The notes below the pieces were generated by a model. The model did no database searches. It was given only the letters and a program-made list of their open reading frames with translations, and had not been told where the DNA came from. Below are positions 5,523 through 32,813 of a stretch of 39,054 nt of DNA, one piece after another. The position numbers and the translations under genes are program-made. The DNA lies in NCBI GenBank assembly GCA_016873255.1, contig VGXR01000022.1:1-39054 (forward strand). The letters run 5' to 3'. This DNA is from Planctomycetota bacterium. Lineage in GTDB: Bacteria; Planctomycetota; Phycisphaerae; Phycisphaerales; SM1A02. Numbering within the stretch: position 1 is the stretch's first letter; the number at the start of each line of letters is the position of its first letter.

Positions 5523-8222
5523 GTGAAGGTGTCCAGCCGCATCGTGCTGTTCGCCGGCCTCGGCGCCACCGCGGTGGTGCTCGTGCTGGGCGCGCTCGGT
5601 GCGCTCCAGCGCATCGAATGGTGGTCGCAGGACCAGCGCTTCCTCAACGCCCGGCAGCGGGCCGACCCCATCGGCGACGCCGTTCGCCTCGTGGCCATCG
5701 ACGATCGCGCGCTCGACACCATCGGACGGTGGCCGTGGTCGCGTGACCTGGTGGCGATGGCGCTCGACGAGGTGCACCGGGCGGGTGCCAAGGCAGTGGC
5801 GACCGACGTGCTTTTCACGGATGTCCAGAAGTTCCCCGCGGAGGATGGCCGCGAGGCCGACCCGCTGCTGGCCGACGCGATCGGCCGCACGCCCACGGTG
5901 CTTGCCGTGAACATGGACGAGGGGCGGCTGGATGCGTCGCTATGGAAGACCCCCGAGGGCAGCGATGCGCTGCGTCGGCTGGTGCGGGCCGCGGCCGAGG
6001 ACATCACGCGCGACGCCGACGACATCGCGGGGCGCGCCGCGCTGCAGGGCGACCGGCGCAGCCGGTTCCTCGAGCGCGCCATGCAGTTCAAGAAGCTCGC
6101 GGCATGGGACACGCTGGTGCACCTGCGCGAGGACGGGCATTCCCCGAGGGACGCCGACGCGTTCTTGCTTTCGCTGACGTCCGGCAACGCGTCGCTCGGG
6201 GAGTTCCCGGAGAAGAACCTGCTGGTCGAGGCCTACGAGCGTGACCGCTCGTTCGGCTGGCTGGCGCGATTCATGGCGCCGGGCAAGGGCGAGGGGTCTG
6301 CGCTCGACGCCCCGCCGATCGCCGCGTTCGCGGAGCGTGCGGCCGGAGTTGGCTTCGTCAACTCGCTTCCCGACCGGGACGGGCAGCACCGGCGCGTGCG
6401 GCCGTTCTGGCCGACGCCCTATGGCGCGCTGCCGCAGTTCGGGATGGCCGCGGGACTGCTGCAGCTCGGGCTGTCGCCGGCCGAGGTGCGGGTGGAGGAC
6501 GGCGAGCTGCGGTTCCCCGACGGCCGGGTGATGCCGCTCGAGCGCGGGGAGATCCGCATCGACTGGCCGACGGCCGTGTTCGAGAACGACGTCGACGGCG
6601 TGCGGGCCGGGGAGACGGGCGTGGTTGCCATCGGTGCGCTGGTCGACCTTGCGCGGCAGCGGGGCGCGCTGGCGAGGCAGGAACGCCAGTACCGCGACCT
6701 GCTTGCGGACATCGCCGCGCTGCAGGGGCTGCCGCCGGAGGCGATCGCCAAGGCCCCGGTCGACGACCGCACGCGCGCGGCGATCAAGGACCAGGGCGAG
6801 TTCCTCGCCGGGGACCTGCAGGTGGCCGGCACCGACGACCTCAAGGACCTTCCCGAGGAGGATCGGCGCAAGGCCGGCCTGTACCGGGAGTGGTGGAAGG
6901 TCGACCGCGAGCTGCCGCAGTCGCAGCGGCGCATCGAGGAGGCCTCGGCGAAGGTGCGGTCGGCGCTCGAGGGGCGCCTGGTGTTCGTGGGCTGGATCGC
7001 GACCGGCGCTGCGGCCGACATGATCAACACGGTGTTCGGCCCCCGGACGCCCGGCGTGTACGTGCACGCGGCCATCGCGGACATGGTCATTGCGTGGCAC
7101 TACGTGGTGGTGTGGCCGCCGTGGACGGCGTATCCCGCGGGCGCGCTGCTCGGCGCGGTGTGCGCGCTGGCCGCGTGGCGGCGGGGTGCAGGCGCGAGCA
7201 CGGCGGTCTGCCTGCTGCTTGCGGGCGGGTGGACGATCCTCGCGGGTGGCGTGGCGTTCGCGGCCGCGGACACCATGATCCCGGTCGCCATCCCGGTGCT
7301 GTGCGCCGTCGGCGCGCAGGCCGTGGGCGTCTCGACGGCGGCGGTCGTGCACCAGCGCGAGAAGGCGCGCATCACGCGGCAGTTCCGCGCGCGCGTCAGC
7401 CCGCAGCTCGTGGACCTGCTCTCGTCGGACCCGGACGCGGTGTCCATGCGAGGCAAGCAGCGCGAGGCGACGATCCTCTTCGGGGACCTCGCGGGCTTCA
7501 CCACCATCAGCGAGAAGCTCGGGTCCGAGGCGGTGGTCGGCACGCTGAACCTGTACATGTCGGCGATGGCCACGGAGCTGACCAACCGGCGCGCGTACGT
7601 GAACAAGTTCCTCGGCGACGGGTTGCTCGCGTTCTGGAGCGCGTTCGGCCCCGAGGCGGAGCAGGGGCAGCTGGCCGCCGAGGCGTGCCGGGCGTGCCAG
7701 CGCGTGGTGACCGAGATCGGGCGGCGGCCCGATCGGCAGGGGCTGCCGAAGGTCTCGCTGCGCCTCGGCGTGGCCACGGGCGTCGTGACCATCGGCGACT
7801 GCGGCGCGCCGCCCGACCTCAACGACTACACGGTGATCGGCGACAGCGCGAACCTCGCCGCGCGCCTCGAGAGCGCCAACAAGCAGTTCGGCACGGCGAT
7901 CCTGTTCGACGGCCGCACGCGCGAGCTGATCCGCGATGCCGGCGGGCTGCCGATCGTGCCGCTCGGGCAGGTGGTGGTGGTGGGCCAGAGCGTGCCGATC
8001 GAGCTGCTCACGATGCTCGTCGAGGACCCGCCGGCCGGGTGGATCGAGGGCATCGGGCGCGCGGTCGAGGCGTTCCGCCGCGCCGACTTCGCCGCGTGCG
8101 CCGAGGCCTGGGACGCGTTCGAGCGCCAGTTCGGCGCGACCAAGATCGCGGTGCCGTTCCGCGAGGCGCTGTCGGACCCAAACGACCGCCGCGACGGCGT
8201 GCTGCGCCTGCGCGCGAAGTGA
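5523..8222 (+). CDS. CHASE2-domain class III adenylate cyclase
   Basis: An 899-residue membrane protein starting at GTG. An N-terminal membrane helix (about 5-27) leads into a large extracytoplasmic CHASE2 sensor (VRLVAIDDRAL near 55; closing GRLVFVGW and PGVYVHAAIADMV). Three membrane helices follow at about 523-605, then a class III cyclase domain from about 643. Metal-binding aspartates lie in LFGDLAGFT and KFLGDGLLAFW; the Lys of VNKFLGD and the Asp of DYTVIGD favour ATP over GTP, and NLAARLE carries the transition-state Asn and Arg. It should make cAMP in response to an envelope signal. The 47-bp gap and own promoter separate it from the FecR gene, but the pair looks functionally linked. 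The stop codon touches a repeat element. Confidence 0.9.
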   Translation: MKVSSRIVLFAGLGATAVVLVLGALGALQRIEWWSQDQRFLNARQRADPIGDAVRLVAIDDRALDTIGRWPWSRDLVAMALDEVHRAGAKAVATDVLFTDVQKFPAEDGREADPLLADAIGRTPTVLAVNMDEGRLDASLWKTPEGSDALRRLVRAAAEDITRDADDIAGRAALQGDRRSRFLERAMQFKKLAAWDTLVHLREDGHSPRDADAFLLSLTSGNASLGEFPEKNLLVEAYERDRSFGWLARFMAPGKGEGSALDAPPIAAFAERAAGVGFVNSLPDRDGQHRRVRPFWPTPYGALPQFGMAAGLLQLGLSPAEVRVEDGELRFPDGRVMPLERGEIRIDWPTAVFENDVDGVRAGETGVVAIGALVDLARQRGALARQERQYRDLLADIAALQGLPPEAIAKAPVDDRTRAAIKDQGEFLAGDLQVAGTDDLKDLPEEDRRKAGLYREWWKVDRELPQSQRRIEEASAKVRSALEGRLVFVGWIATGAAADMINTVFGPRTPGVYVHAAIADMVIAWHYVVVWPPWTAYPAGALLGAVCALAAWRRGAGASTAVCLLLAGGWTILAGGVAFAAADTMIPVAIPVLCAVGAQAVGVSTAAVVHQREKARITRQFRARVSPQLVDLLSSDPDAVSMRGKQREATILFGDLAGFTTISEKLGSEAVVGTLNLYMSAMATELTNRRAYVNKFLGDGLLAFWSAFGPEAEQGQLAAEACRACQRVVTEIGRRPDRQGLPKVSLRLGVATGVVTIGDCGAPPDLNDYTVIGDSANLAARLESANKQFGTAILFDGRTRELIRDAGGLPIVPLGQVVVVGQSVPIELLTMLVEDPPAGWIEGIGRAVEAFRRADFAACAEAWDAFERQFGATKIAVPFREALSDPNDRRDGVLRLRAK

Positions 8223-8699
8223 GAAATCCGCTCCTGGTTCGTTTGGCACCAATTGTTCTCTCCAGAGAAGTCGGATGGGTGGGTCGGTTGCGTGGTGGGG
8301 GTGGCCGCGTGGTTCGCGGCGGGCTTGGACGCCTCGGCGACCGGCGGTGGCCTCAGTCGCTCGGACAAGTTGCACGCAACGGGCGCATCTGCGGCGAGGC
8401 GCGCACGGCCGGGGCGTGCAACAACTCGCTTGATGAGGCCACCACCGTTCGCTGTCGGCTCGGGGCGCCGAACGTCGGGAGGCGGTCGGGCACTGGCTGT
8501 CGTTCATCGGTATGCGGCCGAATCCGGGGAACGCAACCCGTAGTTCGGCGAGCGCCCCGCAGTGAGCAGGGGGTCCCGGCGCAACGAAGGGGCGCGGCCA
8601 CCGCCGGAACCACCACGACCCGTCAACCGCCCGACTTCAAAGCCCCCGCGGCGACTTCCCTAGAGAAAACAATTGGTGCCAAAGGAACCAGGAGCGGAT
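8223..8699. repeat. Gene-free spacer bounded by 49-bp inverted repeats, between convergent genes
   Basis: 477 bp with no credible gene lie between the stop codons of the cyclase (+) and the phosphatase (-). Both edges carry the same 49-bp repeat in opposite orientation, the outer tip of each touching a stop codon. The interior is GC-rich and has a small hairpin (CCCCGC 8555-8560 with GC and GGGG at 8566-8572). I see no transposase fragment and no target-site duplication, so a small mobile element is possible but not shown; a bidirectional transcription barrier is another option. Short stretches (TGGACGCCTCGG, CGGCGGTGG) also occur in the spacer at 29545-29817. Confidence 0.6.
8224..8272 (+). 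repeat. 49-bp interspersed repeat, copy 1
   Basis: Begins AAATCCGCTCCTGG one base after the TGA of the cyclase gene and ends GAGAAGTC. It matches copy 2 (8653-8701, inverted) at 45 of 49 positions and copy 3 (29781-29829, inverted) at 46 of 49. It contains two small palindromes: TTGGCACCAA (8243-8252) and TTCTC/GAGAA (8256-8260 with 8265-8269). Confidence 0.85.
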
Positions 8700-8701
8700 T
8701 T
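8653..8701 (-). repeat. 49-bp interspersed repeat, copy 2 (inverted)
   Basis: Reverse complement of copy 1 with four mismatches. Read on the minus strand, the tip forms TAAATCCGCTCC, whose TAA is the stop codon of the phosphatase gene (8700-8702), so repeat and gene end share bases. Confidence 0.85.
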
Positions 8702-10010
8702 AGGTGCGCTTGACGATCAGACCCGTCTGGTCGTCCTCGAGCGGCGCGTGGGCGCTGAAGTCGTGCACCGCGCGCTGGATCTCGTGGAAGATCTCGGCGG
8801 CGGGCAGGTCGCGCGCGGCGCGCACCACCTGCTTCATGCGCTCGATCTCGAAGCGCTCGCGGTCCGGGCCGGGCGCGGGCGCCTCGTAGAAGCCGTCGGT
8901 GATGGCCACCACGATGTCGCCGGACGCGAGGTCGAGGTGGCGCGAGTCCTCCTCGCCGTAGGGCAGGGCGAACACGCCCATCGGCGGTATGTCCGCCGCG
9001 TACTCCTCGAAGTCGTCGGTGGCCCGGCGGTACACGAGGATCGGTCCTTGCCCCGCGGACACCGTGTGCAGGTGCCCGGAGCGGCAGTCGAGCCGGGCGA
9101 TCCACGCCGTCACGAAGCGGCCGTCGGGCAGGTCCTCGGAGAGCTGCGCGTTCACCTCCTCGGCGATCTTCACGATCGGCTGCCGGAGCCGCAGGCCCAG
9201 GCGCAGCATGCCGCGCATCTGCACGCTGGAGAGCGCGCTCGCGACGCCGTGGCCCGTCGCGTCCGCGATCATCAGCACGAATCCGTCGGGATCGGTCCCG
9301 GGGCCGGCGATGGCGCCCTCGGACAGCGGGATCACGTCGTACGCATCGCCTCCGCAGAACTCGGCCGGCTCGCTCGCGCCCGCGATGTCCCAGCCGGCGA
9401 CGGGCGGCACCTCGTCGGGGAACGTCTCGGCCTGGATGCTCTTGGCGACGTCCATCTCGCGCTCGAGCCGCTCGCGCTCGATGCGGTCCTCGATGAGGCG
9501 GCCGCGCTTCATGGCCACCGCGGCGTTCGCCGCAAGGCCCTGCGCGAGCCGCTCGTCGGCGGCATCGAACGCGCCATCGCGGCGGTTGAGCACCTGTGCC
9601 ACGCCCACCAGCTGGCCGTCGTGGTCGAGCAGCGGGATGGCAAGGATCGTCCGCGTGCGGTACCCGGTCTTCTGGTCGACCGCCCGGTTGAAGCGGGGGT
9701 CCTCGTAGGCATCGGGGATGTTGACGAGCTGCCTCGACGTCGCCGCCGCCCCGGCGATGCCGGTGCCCTTGGGGATGCGGATGACCTTGGGCGCATCGCC
9801 CGCGCCGCCGATGCCGTGCGCCACCTGCGTGAAGAGCTCGTCGGTCTTCGCATCGAACTCGAACACCGTGGCGCGGTCGGCGTCGAGGAGGTCGCGCAGC
9901 GCGTCGATCACCAGCGTCAGGATGGACGGCAGGTCGCCGGTGGCGGCGAGCTCGCGGGACAGCCCGATGAGCCTCTCGGTGCGGCGGGACTCGTCGCGGG
10001 ATGCGGCCAC
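8700..10010 (-). CDS. GAF-domain PP2C (SpoIIE/RsbU-type) serine phosphatase
   Basis: A 436-residue soluble protein. Residues about 25-165 form a GAF sensor domain (RATVFEFDAKTDELF, GIAGAAATSRQLVNIPDAYEDPRFN, LAIPLLDHDGQLVGVAQVLNR). A helical linker leads to a PP2C domain with the metal-binding motifs GGDAYDV (near 218), ADATGHG, ITDGFYEA and DDQTGLIV. Such proteins dephosphorylate anti-anti-sigma (STAS) partners in partner-switching pathways; no such partner is in the window. The start is GTG at 10010, one base after the TGA of the upstream VCBS gene, so translation is coupled. The stop lies in an inverted repeat. The ligand of the GAF domain is unknown; cAMP from the convergent cyclase is only a conjecture. 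Confidence 0.9.
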   Translation of the reverse strand: MAASRDESRRTERLIGLSRELAATGDLPSILTLVIDALRDLLDADRATVFEFDAKTDELFTQVAHGIGGAGDAPKVIRIPKGTGIAGAAATSRQLVNIPDAYEDPRFNRAVDQKTGYRTRTILAIPLLDHDGQLVGVAQVLNRRDGAFDAADERLAQGLAANAAVAMKRGRLIEDRIERERLEREMDVAKSIQAETFPDEVPPVAGWDIAGASEPAEFCGGDAYDVIPLSEGAIAGPGTDPDGFVLMIADATGHGVASALSSVQMRGMLRLGLRLRQPIVKIAEEVNAQLSEDLPDGRFVTAWIARLDCRSGHLHTVSAGQGPILVYRRATDDFEEYAADIPPMGVFALPYGEEDSRHLDLASGDIVVAITDGFYEAPAPGPDRERFEIERMKQVVRAARDLPAAEIFHEIQRAVHDFSAHAPLEDDQTGLIVKRT

Positions 10011-13426: not shown

Positions 13427-15235
13427 ATGACCATGACGCCCCTCGCCCGAATGCCGCGGCTTGCCTCGGTGCTGCCTGCGTTCGCCCTCGCCGCCGCGTG
13501 CTTCGCCGGCGACGGCCCGATGCCGGTGCGCGCGATCGCGCCCGACTCCACCTACGTCCTCGTGTCGGCGGATGCCGTGCAGCGGATGATGGAGAAGTGG
13601 AACGCGACGCCGCTGCAGGCCTTCCTCGAGACGCCGCAGATGGCCAAGGTCCTCGGCCGCGACGGCGGCGCGCAGGAGTCGATGGAGAAGCGCCTCCGCG
13701 AGATGGGCGTTCCCGAGGGTGCCGTCGACTGGCCGGAGTCGTTCGGCCTCGCGAGCTTCACCATCCACGACGAGGAGCTGGACGTCGACAAGCCGCAGAC
13801 GCTGCTGTACGGCGACTGGGGCGCCAAGGCCGACGGCATGGCGAAGTTCTTCGATGCCCTCATCGCCGAGGCCGTGAAGAAGGACGGCGTCACCGTGGCG
13901 AGGGACGAGGTCGCCGGCCGCGAGGTGCAGTTGCTCACCCTTTCCAAGGGCGCGGGCGACGACGACGGCCCGGGGCGGATGCCCGGCATGGACCTCGACG
14001 TCTCCTTCGCCGGGGACCCGCGCAAGCTCTGGTACTGCCGCGACGGCTCCCGCTTCCTGCTCTCGACCGACTCGGGCGGCCTCGAGGACGCGCTCGAGGC
14101 CATCGACGGCAAGCGCAAGGCGAAGCTCCCCGACCAGGCGGACTTCCGCGGCGCGATGGACCAGCTCGGCGACGCGGACCTCTCGGTCTGCCTCCTCACG
14201 GGCCCGATGCAGAAGGGCATGGGCGGCGAGGGCGGCGGGATGATGGCGCTGCTGCAGCCCATCCTTGCGCCGCTCTTCGGCGACGTGCATGCGTACACCA
14301 TCGGCGTGTCGGTCGACTCGCCGCGCGGACAGGTGGAGCTGTCGTCGGGCATCTTCGTGCCGGGCGAGAAGGTCGGCCTCTGGTCGCTGCTCGGCCCCGC
14401 GGCCGCCATCGAGCCGCCGCCGCCGATGATCGGGCCCGATGCGCTCGGCTTCGGCCGCGTCAACGTGCGCTTCAAGGACCTGATGAACCTCCTCGACGCG
14501 GTGACCGCCTCCATGCCCGCCGAGCAGGCGGAGCAGATCGACGCGTACCTCGTGAACTTCGGCCCCGTGCTCTCCAAGGGCTTCGAGGCCATGGGCCCGG
14601 GCATATGGACCTACGAGACCGTCCGCCAGCCGGTGACGCCGGAGAGCCGAGTGACGTCCACGCTGGTCACGTGCTCCAACTCGAAGGCCGTGGTGCCGAT
14701 GATCACGCAGTTCGGCGGCACGCTCGGGCTCGAGCCGCGCGACTTCGACGGCAACACCATCTTCTCCGCCGAGTTCATGCCCATCTCCGTGGGCGTCGCC
14801 AACGGCTGGATGGCCACCGGCGACAGCAAGCTCGTGGAGCACGCCATGCGCTCGATGGGCCAGAAGGACCTCCCGAGCGTGGCGGAGAGCCCCGTCTACC
14901 GGCAGGCCGCGTCCGTGGTCGGCAGCGATCCGGTGGTCTCCTGGGGATGGATCGACCTTGCGGGCCGCTGGGGCTTCGAGCGCGAACTGCTCGCGCAGTT
15001 CGGCGACGACGACAGCCGCCTCGACAACGTGGTGGGCCGTTCCGACGACTCCGAGATCGCCGATCGCCTCGGCTTCAAGGTGCCGAAGGAGTCCTCGGAC
15101 GTCCTCAAGACGATCGATGCCGACATGGTGGCCAAGTACGTGGGACCGATGGTGTGGTCGATGCGGTCGGACGCCAAGGGCTTCGTGACGCGCGCCACCG
15201 TGCTCAAGCCGGTGGCCGCGCCGCCCGCCAAGTGA
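13427..15235 (+). CDS. Secreted protein of unknown function, DUF3352-like
   Basis: ATG 13427 follows the protease stop by 4 nt and opens a signal peptide ending FALAAACFAGDG; Cys near residue 25 could be lipidated. 602 residues in all. Near the N-terminus, IAPDSTYVLVSADAV, KWNATPLQAFLE and TPQMAKVLG resemble DUF3352-type proteins, which typically open with a statement of this kind; the match is from memory and tentative. The rest alternates beta and helical segments with no catalytic motif I recognise. Coupling to the protease suggests a substrate, inhibitor or partner. Its TGA is part of the first unit of the tandem array that follows. Confidence 0.75.
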   Translation: MTMTPLARMPRLASVLPAFALAAACFAGDGPMPVRAIAPDSTYVLVSADAVQRMMEKWNATPLQAFLETPQMAKVLGRDGGAQESMEKRLREMGVPEGAVDWPESFGLASFTIHDEELDVDKPQTLLYGDWGAKADGMAKFFDALIAEAVKKDGVTVARDEVAGREVQLLTLSKGAGDDDGPGRMPGMDLDVSFAGDPRKLWYCRDGSRFLLSTDSGGLEDALEAIDGKRKAKLPDQADFRGAMDQLGDADLSVCLLTGPMQKGMGGEGGGMMALLQPILAPLFGDVHAYTIGVSVDSPRGQVELSSGIFVPGEKVGLWSLLGPAAAIEPPPPMIGPDALGFGRVNVRFKDLMNLLDAVTASMPAEQAEQIDAYLVNFGPVLSKGFEAMGPGIWTYETVRQPVTPESRVTSTLVTCSNSKAVVPMITQFGGTLGLEPRDFDGNTIFSAEFMPISVGVANGWMATGDSKLVEHAMRSMGQKDLPSVAESPVYRQAASVVGSDPVVSWGWIDLAGRWGFERELLAQFGDDDSRLDNVVGRSDDSEIADRLGFKVPKESSDVLKTIDADMVAKYVGPMVWSMRSDAKGFVTRATVLKPVAAPPAK

Positions 15236-15440
15236 GTCCAAACCAAGTCAGTCCAAACCAAGTGAGTCCAAACCAAGGGAGTCCCAAACCAAGGGAGTCC
15301 CAAACCAAGGGAGTCCCAAACAAGGGAGTCCCAAACCAAGGGAGTCCCAAACAAGGGAGTCCCAAACAAGGGAGTCCCAAACAAGGGAGTCCCAGCCAAG
15401 TGAGTCCCAACCAAGTGAGTCCCAACCAGGTGATTCCTGG
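15230..15440. repeat. Tandem 15/16-bp repeat array between convergent genes
   Basis: Thirteen clear units and one decayed unit occupy 15230-15440. The outer units are 15-mers of the AAGTGAGTCCAAACC type and the central ones are 15- or 16-mers of the AAGGGAGTCCCAAACC type, in which GGGA and TCCC can pair across one base. The array starts inside the end of the DUF3352-like gene, whose stop TGA (15233-15235) is part of unit 1. About 40 bp of unremarkable sequence remain before the stop of the minus-strand hydrolase. There are no spacers, so it is not CRISPR. The mixture of unit lengths and a central homogenised block suggests slippage expansion. Confidence 0.9.
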
Positions 15441-15478
15441 CGCGCACGGGCGCGGTCGGGCCACGGCTGAACCAGGCC

Positions 15479-28020: not shown

Positions 28021-29544
28021 ATGACCGACCCCCAGCGAACGCATGCCGACCCGATGGAGGAGTACCTCCTCAACCTGACGCGACGGCGGTTCTTCGGGCG
28101 CGCGGCGGGAACGATCGGCGCGGGGCTCGGGGGACTGGCGCTCGCGGGGATCTCCGGGCGGGCGCACGCGGCGGCGGGCGCGGGGCCGGGCGTCGCGGGT
28201 GGGCCTGGCGTGGTGCCCGCGGCCGGCGCCCATGCGGCGGGGCCGCACTTCGCGCCCAAGGCCAAGCGCGTCATCTACCTGCACATGGAGGGGGCACCCA
28301 GCCAGCTCGACCTCTACGACCACAAGCCGCAGCTGCAGGAGCGCTTCGACCAGGACCTTCCCGACTCGATCCGCAACGGCCAGCGCATCACCACGATGAC
28401 GAGCGGCCAGACCCGGTTCCCGGTGGCGCCGTCGGTGTTCCGCTTCGACCGCCACGAGAACAACCAGGACGGCGTGTACCTGTCCGAGCTGCTGCCCTTC
28501 ACGGGCGGGGTGGCCAAGGACCTCTGCTTCGTGCACTCGATGCACACGCAGGCGATCAACCACGAGCCGGGGATCACCTTCTTCCAGACGGGCTCCGAGC
28601 AGCCGGGGCGCGCATCGTTCGGCAGCTGGATGAGCTACGGGCTCGGCAGCGCCAACAGCAACCTGCCGTCGTTCGTGGTGATGATCACGCAGGGGCCGGG
28701 CAACATGCAGGCCCTGAGCGCGCGCTTCTGGGGGAGCGGGTTCCTGCCGAGCGAGCACCAGGGCTGCCGCATCCGCGCCGGGCGCGATGCGGTGCTCCAC
28801 CTGCGCGACCCGGACGGCGTGTCGCGCACCGACCGGCGCCGCATGCTCGACCTCCTGATGCGCCTGAACGAGGAGGAGTTCTCGCAGAGCCTCGACCAGG
28901 AGACGCGCACGCGCATCGCGCAGCACGAGATGGCCTACCGCATGCAGATGTCGGTGCCGGAGCTCACCGACTTCTCCGACGAGAGCCCGGCGACGCTCGA
29001 GATGTACGGGCCGGACGTGCACAGGCCCGGGAGCTTCGCGGCCAACTGCCTGCTCGCACGGCGGCTCGCCGAGCGCGACGTGCGCTTCGTGCAGCTCTAC
29101 ATGCGCGGCTGGGACCAGCACGGCAACCTGCCGGGCGAGATCCGCGCGCAGTGCAGGGCGGTGGACCAGGCGCAGGCGGCGCTCGTGAAGGACCTGAAGC
29201 AGCGCGGTCTGCTCGATGACACGATCGTCCTGTGGAGCGGCGAGTTCGGCCGCACCGTCTACAGCCAGGGCCAGCTGACGCGCACGAGCTACGGCCGCGA
29301 CCACCATCCGCGCTGCTTCACTGCCTGGATGGCCGGCGGCGGAGTGAACCCGGGCACCACGTACGGCAAGACCGACGACTACTCGTACAACATCGCCGAG
29401 AACCCCGTCGAGGTGCACGACCTGCACGCGACGCTGTTGCACCTCCTCGGCTTCGACCACACCAGGCTGACCTATCGCCTGCAGGGCCGTGATTACCGGC
29501 TGACCGACGTCAAGGGCAACGTGGTGCGCCCGCTGATGGCGTGA
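28021..29544 (+). CDS. DUF1501 protein with Tat signal
   Basis: 507 residues. The N-terminus has a twin-arginine signal (LTRRRFFGRAAG, residues 19-30) followed by a hydrophobic stretch and ARA-type cleavage region, so it is exported folded. The body shows the DUF1501 layout, related to alkaline phosphatase/sulfatase folds: YLHMEGAPSQLDLYDHKP, HSMHTQAINHEPG, GSWMSYGLGS, LWSGEFGRTVYSQ and YGRDHHPRCFTAWMAGGG. The biochemical role of this family is unproven. It sits 7 nt after the DUF1549/DUF1553 gene, with AAGGA about 11 nt upstream of ATG, and is its usual partner. The stop codon is followed by fragments of the 49-bp repeat. Confidence 0.92.
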   Translation: MTDPQRTHADPMEEYLLNLTRRRFFGRAAGTIGAGLGGLALAGISGRAHAAAGAGPGVAGGPGVVPAAGAHAAGPHFAPKAKRVIYLHMEGAPSQLDLYDHKPQLQERFDQDLPDSIRNGQRITTMTSGQTRFPVAPSVFRFDRHENNQDGVYLSELLPFTGGVAKDLCFVHSMHTQAINHEPGITFFQTGSEQPGRASFGSWMSYGLGSANSNLPSFVVMITQGPGNMQALSARFWGSGFLPSEHQGCRIRAGRDAVLHLRDPDGVSRTDRRRMLDLLMRLNEEEFSQSLDQETRTRIAQHEMAYRMQMSVPELTDFSDESPATLEMYGPDVHRPGSFAANCLLARRLAERDVRFVQLYMRGWDQHGNLPGEIRAQCRAVDQAQAALVKDLKQRGLLDDTIVLWSGEFGRTVYSQGQLTRTSYGRDHHPRCFTAWMAGGGVNPGTTYGKTDDYSYNIAENPVEVHDLHATLLHLLGFDHTRLTYRLQGRDYRLTDVKGNVVRPLMA

Positions 29545-29817
29545 GAAGTCCGTTTCCCGGGCATTTCGGAGCGGATTCCGGACCGGCGGGTGGGCCTTTA
29601 GCCGTGCCTCGAGTTGATGAATTTGTCTCCTTTCGCTGACCCTCCCTCCGCGCATTCACGCCGGCTCCAGCCGGCGCCGCACTCCTCGCCGCGCCCCGAG
29701 CCGAGGCGTCCAGGTGCGCCCCCACCGCCGATCGCTGAGGCCGCGAAGCGCGCCGCGCCACGCGCCCGGTCCATCCACCCGACTTCTCTGGAGAAATCAA
29801 TTGGTGCCAAACTAACC
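29545..29817. repeat. Gene-free, repeat-bearing spacer between convergent genes
   Basis: With the tandem array this makes 344 bp between the stops at 29544 and 29889 with no credible gene. The left edge has repeat-like fragments (GAGAAGTC right after the DUF1501 stop; GGAGCGGATT near 29566). The interior shares TGGACGCCTCGG and CGGCGGTGG (minus-strand sense) with the spacer at 8223-8699, in a different order, so the two spacers appear to be rearranged relatives. Confidence 0.55.
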
Positions 29818-29829
29818 AGGAGCGGATTT
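29781..29829 (-). repeat. 49-bp interspersed repeat, copy 3 (inverted)
   Basis: Reverse complement matches copy 1 at 46 of 49 positions. It includes the TTGGCACCAA palindrome and a TTCTC-CA-GAGAA hairpin. Its tip merges into the 15-bp tandem array that runs to the stop codon of the minus-strand gene. Confidence 0.85.
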
Positions 29830-29892
29830 CAGAGGAGCGGATTTCAGAGGAGCGGATTTCAGAGGAGCGGATTTCAGGGGAGCGGATTTCAG
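29818..29892. repeat. Five-unit 15-bp tandem array ending in a stop codon
   Basis: Four identical units AGGAGCGGATTTCAG and a fifth beginning GGG occupy 29818-29892. The unit is the tip of the 49-bp repeat, so the array is a local amplification of it. The TCA of the last unit (29889-29891) is the TGA stop of the minus-strand gene; every unit carries the same stop in that frame, giving up to five in-frame stops. Confidence 0.9.
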
Positions 29893-32813
29893 CGCATGCG
29901 CATGCCGCCGCGGGGGCCGGTGCGGTAGCCGCCGTAGTACCCGCCGTAGTAGCCGCCGTAGGCATTGGGCGCGGTGGCGCCGTACATGCCGGGGAAGCCC
30001 ATCCACGTGTACTGCGGCACGCCGCCGCCGACCATGCCGTAGCCCCACAGGCTGTAGTTGAGCCCCGCGCCGCCGCCTGAGTAGCCGCTGCGCACGCCTG
30101 GGCTCATGCCGTTGCCCTCCAGCCCGCCGGAATAGCCGCTGCGCAGGCCGGTGGAGCCGTTGTTCTCGCCGAGGCCGCCCGCGTAGCCGCTCGTGAGGCC
30201 GGGGGCGTTGTTCACCTGGCCGATGCCGCCCGAGTATCCGCTCGAGATGCCGCCGCCCTCGAATGCCGAGTAGCCGTCGCCGCCGCCGCCGTACTGGGAG
30301 CGCACGACGCCGCGCGCGCCGGTGTAGCCGGACAGCTGGCCGTAGCCGCGCTGGCCGTTGCTCCAGGCGGGGTTGCCATAGCCGTATGCGCCGCTGCTCG
30401 GGCGCTGCTGCGGGGGCGCCGCCTGCTGCGGCTGCTGCTGCGGCGCCTCGCGCATCGCGTAGGCCGGGCGGTCGAACCCGCCGCCGTTCCAGTTGCCGCC
30501 GCGCGAGCGCTCGCCGGGCGCCCGCCCGCCGTGGCCGGGCTCGAGGCCCTCGCTGCGGTCGGCGTAGTTGGTCTCGCCGCGGGCGAACGCGCCCCGCGGG
30601 CTGCCGTCGAAGTTGTGGTTGGGATCGGGACGGAAGTCATCCGTCGGCTGCGACCGCGACGGCGCGTCGTTGCCGGCGCCGTCGTCGCGCCGCCAGCCGC
30701 CCGCGCCGCGCGCGTAGGCGTGGTCGTCGCGCTGCTGCACGACGGTGCCCGCCTTGCTCGCGCTCACGTCGTCGTCGATGCCCGCGGCGTGGCCCCACGA
30801 CTTGCTCGTGGCTGCGGGCGCAAGCGCGCGCGCCGCCGACAGGTCGCCGCCCATCGCCGCACGGTTGCCGGCGGTCATCGCGCCCGCCCAGCCGCGCCGG
30901 TACGCGGCGCCCCAGTGGTTCGTCCACCAGCCCGCGCCGTCGCGCGCGCCCCACGGGTGGTAGCCCCAGTGCCAGCTGCCCGCGTATCCCATGCCGAGCG
31001 CGTAGGACATGCCGAACGACTGGTCCGGCCCCCACCAGCCCGGCGAGCACCAGAGGGGACCGCACTGCAGCGCATCCTCGGCCCAGCCCGGCGCGGTCTC
31101 GAACATCCACCCCGCGTACCCGAAGCTCGGCTCCGGTCCGTAGGTCACCGGCCAGCCGACGTACTCGCCCCACATCGCACCGTCATCGGGCACGCTGCCG
31201 CCCCCCGGGCCCGTGTCAACGGCGGCGGACGTGCCGGTGGTCGCGTTCCCGGTGCCGTACACGGCGACGCCATCGAGCGCGAAGCCGTTCACGTAGCCGG
31301 CCGTGTAGCTGAACGTCACCGCGTCCGCCGTGGAGTTCACCACCTGCACGAACGTGGTCCCGAAGAGCGGGCTGGAGGCCGGGATGCCGTAGATCGCCGC
31401 GGGCACCGCATCGCAGAGCGACCACGGCCCGTTCGCCGAACCGGCGGTGAACCATGCCGCGTCCTGGCAGAGGTACCACGCGCCCTCGCAGCCGATCACG
31501 GGTCGCGTGGCGTTGGTGGCCCAGGTGAGCGAGGTACCCGCGATGGGTGCGGTCCTCGCAGGCGAGCCCGCCGGCACCGTCGCGACCGATGCCTTGGCGA
31601 GCGAGCGGCTGATCGTCGCCACGTGCGGCACGGCCTGCTGGTAGAGCGCGTCCTTCGCCGCCTCGGTGCCCGGCACCGCCGCAAGCACTCTGCCCCACGT
31701 GCCGCGCGGGTCGATCTGCGCGAACGCGGGGGGCAGGGTGCTCGGGGCCGCGTACGACCAGGGGCCGTCCATGAGGCGGCCCGTGGTGAACCAGCGTCCC
31801 GACGCAAGCAGCCACCATCGATCGCCCTGCGCCGTGGTGAAGAGGTCGGCGCTTGCGTTGCGCACCGCCATGAGCCCGTCGGCCACCTGCGCGAGGTCAG
31901 GCTGGCCGGCGATGCTCACGAGCACCGTGGGCCCGGTGACGACCACCACCTCGGGCAGGTCCTTCGGCACCGCGGGCGTCACCACGCCGGGGTGGCGCGC
32001 GGGGAGCGCGGACTCGATGGCCTTGCGCACGTCGTCGCCCGGGACCTTGCCTCCGATGAAGGGCCCCTTCCAGCGCGTCGAGTGCAGCCATGTGTCGGCG
32101 CCGAGGCGCGTGAACCACGTGCCGCTCGACGAGTCGAAGGCGAGGAGCGAGGGCGTGTTCTGCGCGATGCCCACGCCGGCGGCGGCCATGCGCAGCACCG
32201 GCGGTCCGTCGAGGAGCAGCAGCGTCGCCGCATGGTCCACCACGCGGACGCCGGGAACCGCGCTCGACACCGGCCCCGACTTCGCCTGCGCCGCGTTCAC
32301 CTGCACGTCCTCGAGCGCCACGCTGCGCGGGACGGTGAACGTCACGCCCATCAGCATCCGCTGCAGCGCCGCGGCCACGGGCGCCGGGTCGGAGCCGTCG
32401 CTCAGCATCGCCTTCTCGAGGAGGATGTCCGAGACCACCACCAGCCCGGAGGCGAGGTCGTTGTCCACGCCCGCGGTGAAGCGCGCGGAGCCGTAGCTTG
32501 CCTGCGCGCCCTGCGTCGAGCGCCGGAACGCCACGCGCGCCGTGGCCTTGCCTGCGTCGATCGACTCGAACTGCGGCGTGTAGAGCACGTAGGCCGTGCC
32601 GTCGAGCGTGGCCTCCTGCGGCCACAGCGTCTCGCCGTCGTCGTGCGCGGGCGCGGGCGGGGCGTTGTCCGGGTGCGTCGGCGCGGCCTGCCGGGCGGCC
32701 GCGGCCTGCGCAGGCTGCGTGCTGTCCCGGGCGGAGAGGCCGGCACCCGCGGCGGCGATGGCAAGCGTGGCGACGATCGACTGGACGTGCAAGGTTCGCG
32801 TGGGCGTGTTCAC
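29889..32813 (-). CDS. Large secreted Gly/Tyr-rich protein, 'carbohydrate-binding family V/XII' type, paralogue 1
   Basis: 974 residues starting at GTG 32813, with TAGCAT 7 nt upstream. A signal peptide (about 1-28) precedes an Ala/Pro linker. The conserved part begins GETLWPQEATLDGTAYVLYTP and includes WLLASGRWFTT, GAWYLCQDAAWFTAGSANGP, YGIPASSPLFGTTFVQV and FSYTAGYVNG. I recall this pattern from proteins labelled carbohydrate-binding family V/XII, whose true role is not established. The C-terminal third is Gly/Ser/Tyr/Trp/Asn-rich low complexity, with about four 17-residue repeats around SGYSGG (nt about 30065-30250) and a GGYYGGYYGGY tail. It is clearly homologous to the protein at 34814-37882. 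Probably exported or surface-exposed. Confidence 0.8.
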   Translation of the reverse strand: MNTPTRTLHVQSIVATLAIAAAGAGLSARDSTQPAQAAAARQAAPTHPDNAPPAPAHDDGETLWPQEATLDGTAYVLYTPQFESIDAGKATARVAFRRSTQGAQASYGSARFTAGVDNDLASGLVVVSDILLEKAMLSDGSDPAPVAAALQRMLMGVTFTVPRSVALEDVQVNAAQAKSGPVSSAVPGVRVVDHAATLLLLDGPPVLRMAAAGVGIAQNTPSLLAFDSSSGTWFTRLGADTWLHSTRWKGPFIGGKVPGDDVRKAIESALPARHPGVVTPAVPKDLPEVVVVTGPTVLVSIAGQPDLAQVADGLMAVRNASADLFTTAQGDRWWLLASGRWFTTGRLMDGPWSYAAPSTLPPAFAQIDPRGTWGRVLAAVPGTEAAKDALYQQAVPHVATISRSLAKASVATVPAGSPARTAPIAGTSLTWATNATRPVIGCEGAWYLCQDAAWFTAGSANGPWSLCDAVPAAIYGIPASSPLFGTTFVQVVNSTADAVTFSYTAGYVNGFALDGVAVYGTGNATTGTSAAVDTGPGGGSVPDDGAMWGEYVGWPVTYGPEPSFGYAGWMFETAPGWAEDALQCGPLWCSPGWWGPDQSFGMSYALGMGYAGSWHWGYHPWGARDGAGWWTNHWGAAYRRGWAGAMTAGNRAAMGGDLSAARALAPAATSKSWGHAAGIDDDVSASKAGTVVQQRDDHAYARGAGGWRRDDGAGNDAPSRSQPTDDFRPDPNHNFDGSPRGAFARGETNYADRSEGLEPGHGGRAPGERSRGGNWNGGGFDRPAYAMREAPQQQPQQAAPPQQRPSSGAYGYGNPAWSNGQRGYGQLSGYTGARGVVRSQYGGGGDGYSAFEGGGISSGYSGGIGQVNNAPGLTSGYAGGLGENNGSTGLRSGYSGGLEGNGMSPGVRSGYSGGGAGLNYSLWGYGMVGGGVPQYTWMGFPGMYGATAPNAYGGYYGGYYGGYRTGPRGGMRMR

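Follow-up and report, generated by a model that had tools for sequence, protein, structure and literature searches.

A non-coding palindromic repeat between the stop codons of convergent genes in a freshwater planctomycete, and its core hairpin with an internal loop found in other phyla

The window considered here, a stretch of 39,054 nt (contig VGXR01000022.1, C22 in our numbering), belongs to the 2.78-Mb draft genome of a freshwater planctomycete. At positions 8224-8701 it harbors a palindrome of 478 nt that extends from the stop codon of one gene to the stop codon of its convergent neighbour. It is a copy of a non-coding repeat with 50-bp inverted ends, which is found at about 25 loci of this genome in lengths of 80-730 bp. 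The repeat is probably a species-specific, non-autonomous mobile element resembling repetitive extragenic palindromes (REPs) and miniature inverted-repeat transposable elements (MITEs), either tolerated or used as a hairpin shared by two mRNA 3' ends. Its centre holds another hairpin, whose internal loop is almost invariant and recurs in other phyla. An earlier reading of the window (the original prediction) had pointed to the fusion of the repeat with the stop codons and missed this inner hairpin, the more unusual of the two features.

The window copy is bordered by a left terminal inverted repeat at 8224-8273 on the plus strand (AAATCCGCTCCTGGTTCGTTTGGCACCAATTG...GTCG) and a right one at 8652-8701 on the minus strand. 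The two arms are complementary in inverted orientation at 46/50 positions (92%), in agreement with the 45/49 predicted for 8224-8272 and 8653-8701. On the left, the plus-strand CHASE2/adenylate cyclase-like gene (5523-8222) ends with a TGA at 8220-8222, separated from the tip by a single G (8223). On the right, the minus-strand GAF-SpoIIE gene (8700-10010) ends with a TAA (TTA on the plus strand, 8700-8702), two bases of which are supplied by the tip; both contacts are as predicted, and so are the internal palindromes TTTGGCACCAA and TTCTC..GAGAA. The interior of the copy comprises, on the plus strand, a sub-module TGGACGCCTCGGCGACCGGC (8326-8345), present as 1-4 tandem duplicates in other copies, and the core hairpin (8346-8443). 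The latter consists of a stem P2 (GGTGGCCTCA/TGAGGCCACC), the conserved internal loop with its 5' strand CAGTCGCTCGGACA (8354-8367) and 3' strand CTCGCTTGATG (8425-8435), a stem P3 (GTTGCACGC/GCGTGCAAC), and a variable apical loop; a covariance model of the core matches positions 8314-8476. Folded as a single RNA strand, the 478-nt copy reaches a z-score of -9.4 relative to dinucleotide shuffles.

A search of the host genome with the whole element yielded 102 BLAST matches. When up to 3 mismatches are allowed, the 32-nt tip is found there 32 times and a reversed control pattern 0 times; the repeat is therefore not due to chance. About 16 copies are long, at 260-733 bp, although contig ends truncate some of them; further short palindromes measure 80-180 bp. 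The copies differ in their inner modules, which follow the order TGGACGCCTCGGCGACCGGCGGTGG (one to four times), hairpin core, and right part. Six contigs of the same genome (C12, C14, C29, C32, C50, and C110) start or stop within repeat copies, so the repeat evidently breaks the assembly and the figure of about 25 loci is a lower bound.

The placement of these copies follows gene ends. Among the tips facing the 3' end of a gene, 29/39 lie within -4 to +1 nt of the stop codon, and 23/39 contribute one or two of its bases, 19 as T-AA and 4 as TG-A (the hyphen marks the edge of the tip). The T-AA frame accounts for 19/29 genes that touch or enter a tip (P = 4e-4 against 1/3). The junctions occupied by the repeat are convergent in 15/21 cases, tandem in 6, and divergent in 0 (P = 1e-5 against 0.25); both P values are only indicative because the copies are related. 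As far as copy number and placement are concerned, the original prediction, which would have fallen if copies were absent elsewhere or scattered without relation to stops and convergent junctions, is thus borne out on the scale of the genome. Repeat termini that form stop codons have a precedent in GTAG REPs (PMC3733652), and the multi-copy, extragenic distribution with a preference for convergent and unidirectional 3' ends is likewise that of REPs.

Comparison with related genomes shows what the same junctions look like without the repeat. The flanks of five repeat junctions were used as queries, and the same gene pairs were recovered in up to 13 congeners. These carry either a bare gap of 1-47 nt (in one case 110 nt) or an unrelated palindrome of identical stop-to-stop geometry, and the C-terminal residues of the proteins are the same. 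The window junction measures 40 nt in G012, is devoid of the repeat, and follows an upstream protein with the same C-terminus (..LRAK*). The gaps amount to 1, 12, 32, and 47 nt at the C9 junction, 16-25 nt at the C37 junction, where the gap of 110 nt occurs as well, and 10-43 nt at the C21 junction. At the C29 junction, G007 has 11 nt, G013 a 27-nt palindrome (AAATTCGTCCCG..CGGGACGAATTT), and G004 a 66-nt palindrome (AAATAGGTGCC..GGCACCTATTT); the tips of both palindromes form the stop codons. In G004, a species-specific family of 32-nt palindromes or hairpins (AAATAGGTGCC.., AAATAGGTGCCGTGTTAATGCGGCACCTATTT), unrelated to the present repeat, is arranged in inverted pairs, with several tips touching stops (L307-L318), and a copy in G001 has a different terminal repeat that abuts stops on both sides. 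Unrepeated convergent spacers of the genus are not significantly more palindromic in general than shuffled sequences (2/18 at p<0.05). The C-terminal lengths of the congener proteins are equal to within one codon, as judged by eye, so the genes have not been truncated by the repeat. Beside the repeat, only 0-4 nt of spacer are left in the host genome; the repeat therefore replaces the spacer, and this replacement is the least explained point of the analysis.

The internal loop of the core (CAGTCGCTCRGACA / CTCGCTTKRTG) is nearly invariant, whereas the P2 and P3 stems are wholly different between species. Of 101 genomes searched with the covariance model, 7 contain the core, all of them among the 14 that belong to the genus. 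A pattern restricted to the loop gave at least 114 matches in genome contigs of other taxa, with Eggerthellaceae, Woeseiaceae, Pelistega suis, Lachnospiraceae, an actinomycete, and Planctomycetes among the matches listed; about 0.1 to a few matches were estimated to arise by chance. In 13 genomes, exact loop copies number 1-31 per genome, compared with 0 for the reversed control pattern. Across 19 dissimilar examples, pairing in P2 amounts to 78% for its own arms and 40% for swapped arms (0/5000 permutations), and P3 pairing likewise exceeds all permutations. Within one Lachnospiraceae genome, a single P3 position shows the compensatory changes CGGC/GCCG, CGGG/CCCG, and CGGT/ACCG (by eye). In L249, L252, and L253 the two sides of the loop have changed in concert, giving the variant GATTCGCTCRGACA / CTCGCTCGGTC; since the exact pattern misses it, the family is larger than counted. 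In Eggerthellaceae the arms are locus-specific and perfectly paired, and the low-GC relatives L113 and L147 show U/A tracts outside P2. The core was also looked for in viruses, phages, plasmids, and E. coli, and no carrier was found: the loop pattern has 0 matches in viral contigs, and phages, plasmids, and E. coli gave no match with a single Eggerthellaceae-type consensus query, which could miss distant variants. None of the Rfam 15 covariance models matches the element or its core, and a search of the open-access literature by sequence 12-mers and by topic returned no description of the two-sided loop or its spread across phyla.

Copies of the core lie mostly between genes, often shortly after a stop codon (gene calls are noisy in these GC-rich loci), and their orientation relative to the genes is mixed. 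Several features are suggestive of mobility: one core copy is nested in another copy, copies occur within coding regions in Eggerthellaceae, and the orientation of the core differs at orthologous sites. Core-type elements were observed in reading-frame linkers of Eggerthellaceae genes (L130, 662-1035 and 1776-2064; L121; L216; L176), one of these in-frame cores preceding a TsaD-like ILAIESSCD segment. The junction of pheS and pheT likewise suggests mobility: two Adlercreutzia genomes have only a bare 18 nt there, while their relatives carry the element or its loop variant GATTCGCTC../..CTCGGTC, with core-type elements at L125 and L247-L255; another core-type element lies between rpsG and fusA (L161, 2571-2624). 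A strong terminator within either gene pair would be harmful, hence the core is not simply a terminator. The bidirectional terminator of the original prediction finds no support: relatives of the core sit inside operons and genes, and no U-tract terminator is called in the window copy. The insertion of a module into a pre-existing terminator was also considered and is unsupported, since the core-less site L131 has a separate terminator-like hairpin and not a split one.

The repeat shares traits with several known families. REP, REPIN, and BIME sequences are GTAG- and CGTC-tagged palindromes with units of 20-40 and the tag at the base of a short hairpin (Di Nocera et al., 2013, PMC3733652). The present repeat resembles them in its many intergenic palindromes, mostly 3' of genes with convergent or unidirectional open reading frames, often as inverted pairs and sometimes inside open reading frames. 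It differs in that its conserved sequence makes up the two strands of an internal loop and no GTAG/CGTC tag is found at the hairpin base, in its units of 80-730 bp, and in the absence of a RAYT from the host genome and from the vicinity of any motif copy. By tag and transposase, it is not a member of the REPs. The terminal inverted repeats, the multiple copies, and the lack of coding capacity are those of a MITE. Correia/NEMIS, ERIC, RUP, and BOX elements are non-coding, intergenic, and probably co-transcribed, with terminal inverted repeats and a palindromic fold. The repeat has the same non-coding, inverted-ended, palindromic, and intergenic build and is probably co-transcribed as well, but differs from them by the lack of a consistent TA duplication, by its stop-to-stop ends, and by the nested core with its conserved loop. 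Rickettsia palindromic elements (RPEs) are palindromic repeats of about 100-150 bp that insert inside genes too. The core element is similarly present inside genes in Eggerthellaceae, whereas the copies in the host genome lie between genes, and we know of no internal-loop signature shared across phyla in RPEs.

A degraded second copy of the repeat lies in opposite orientation (minus strand) at another convergent junction of the window, 29546-29829. Its core has decayed, its left tip AAGTCCG directly follows a TGA plus G (29542-29545), and its right arm (29780-29829) matches the terminal repeat at 90%. The predicted third copy at 29781-29829 is real, although it is only the right arm of this degraded full copy. 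It continues into five tandem 15-mers AGGAGCGGATTTCAG at 29818-29892, each made up of the repeat tip plus CAG; within the last of them, gene 29889-32813 (minus strand) ends with its TGA. Amplification of a tip plus 3-4 nt was observed both here and in a GCAGAAGCGGATTTCG array at about 16 kb of G000:C5 (L008); the stop codon plus tip therefore behaves like a minisatellite. At a further convergent junction of the window (15214-15455), about 15 head-to-tail 15-mers (CAAGTGAGTCCCAAA-like) take up the space, with the TGA stop of gene 13427-15235 in the first unit. The four convergent junctions of the window are thus occupied by the repeat (2), a 15-bp tandem array (1), or a bare 24 nt (1); divergent and tandem junctions number 4 and 12.

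It is conceivable that the repeat reached its position in different ways. If it were an ordinary MITE of an IS630/Tc1-type transposon, which targets TA, insertion would fuse the tip to the stop and regenerate TAA, since TA in a GC-rich genome occurs mainly in stop codons. The modal geometry T-AAATCC..GGATTT-A and the T..A flanks of most copies of the G004 family (where the search pattern itself required T) accord with such an origin. It is decidedly improbable nonetheless: G or C adjoins the tip in many copies, insertion at a single TA would keep the remaining spacer to one side of the repeat, where no such remnant is observed, and an IS630/DDE_3 parent was rejected because none of the 14 genomes of the genus encodes a DDE_3 domain. 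Insertion may instead have been random, with purifying selection removing every copy except those that fell into short 3' spacers, the genome being compact. Congener spacers of 1-47 nt (one of 110) would bring any tolerated copy close to two stops, and divergent gaps, which contain promoters, are avoided; the loss of spacer bases (0-4 nt left versus 10-40 nt in orthologs) and the biased stop frame (19/29) make this explanation unlikely, too. According to a further scenario, the palindrome grew in place, the small inverted repeat of two convergent stops being expanded by template switching and homogenised by gene conversion. Three congeners with different exact stop-to-stop palindromes at the same junctions (L295, L303, L278/L279), the tip-derived 15-mers in tandem arrays, and the locus-specific yet perfectly paired arms of Eggerthellaceae would fit. 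Yet the shuffle comparison shows most repeat-free spacers to be no more palindromic than expected, and the closely similar 50-bp tips at many loci would still require copying between loci, so there is little chance that growth in place accounts for the repeat.

With respect to the core, a rather doubtful alternative is that it represents a structured non-coding RNA, either a ribozyme or a binding site, which has a function of its own and is carried by the palindromes. The nearly invariant two-sided loop amid changing stems across phyla and the tandem G.A pairs that are possible when the complementary strand is read speak in its favor; the lack of an Rfam match, the mixed orientation to genes, and the inconsistent wobble asymmetry do not. 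Our own tentative proposal, to which we give somewhat less than an even chance, is that the loop CAGTCGCTCRGACA / CTCGCTTKRTG marks an undescribed cross-phylum class of mobile hairpins, made of RNA or single-stranded DNA, that would be read through the loop by a conserved protein of host or element and colonise palindromic gene-end spacers.

The reading of the repeat as a mobile palindrome with a possible role at mRNA 3' ends has to be set against several observations. Almost no original spacer is left, which plain insertion does not explain. Target-site duplications are not consistent, T and A flanking both tips in few copies only; the congeners are too distant to show exact empty sites. The Y1 transposase (PF01797) and DDE_3 (PF13358), the only two families searched, are absent from the host genome, so that neither a consistent duplication nor a candidate transposase backs the predicted targeting of gene ends. 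Mobilisation as a REP by a RAYT was rejected, as PF01797 is missing from the host genome and, in other genomes, no motif copy lies within about 1.5 kb of it. No gene is enclosed by a pair of terminal inverted repeats in the loci retrieved, and no recurrent neighbour was seen that could be an autonomous partner, single-copy genomes having housekeeping neighbours. A scan for intrinsic terminators, which consist of a GC stem and a subsequent U-tract, found none at 8224-8701, and core copies inside operons fit badly with terminator activity. Counts of G.U versus A.C do not identify the transcribed strand; an early count had suggested reverse-strand transcription, which was dropped because a conserved tandem A.C mismatch had caused it and the full count is inconsistent. 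Finally, the gene coordinates stem from a home-made codon-model caller and not from a standard annotator.

Taken together, the element fills the intergenic spacer completely, usually at convergent junctions, and reaches from one stop codon to the other. Its AAAT../..ATTT tips re-create the stop (T-AA or TG-A), and therefore neither protein is shortened. The nested hairpin in the centre, which may be an older element, marks palindromic repeats in other phyla as well, its internal loop probably being what a mobilising or binding machinery recognises. The 50-bp stem would close both mRNAs with a shared, very stable hairpin, which would protect their 3' ends and may also terminate transcription from both sides.

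Should the loop serve as a recognition signal, a single protein or process would act on palindromic repeats across Planctomycetes, Actinobacteria, Proteobacteria, and Firmicutes. The stop-to-stop placement illustrates how a repeat can occupy a whole intergenic spacer with both proteins unchanged, and it provides a naturally occurring case in which to ask whether, in compact genomes, the transcripts of convergent genes end at a hairpin common to both.

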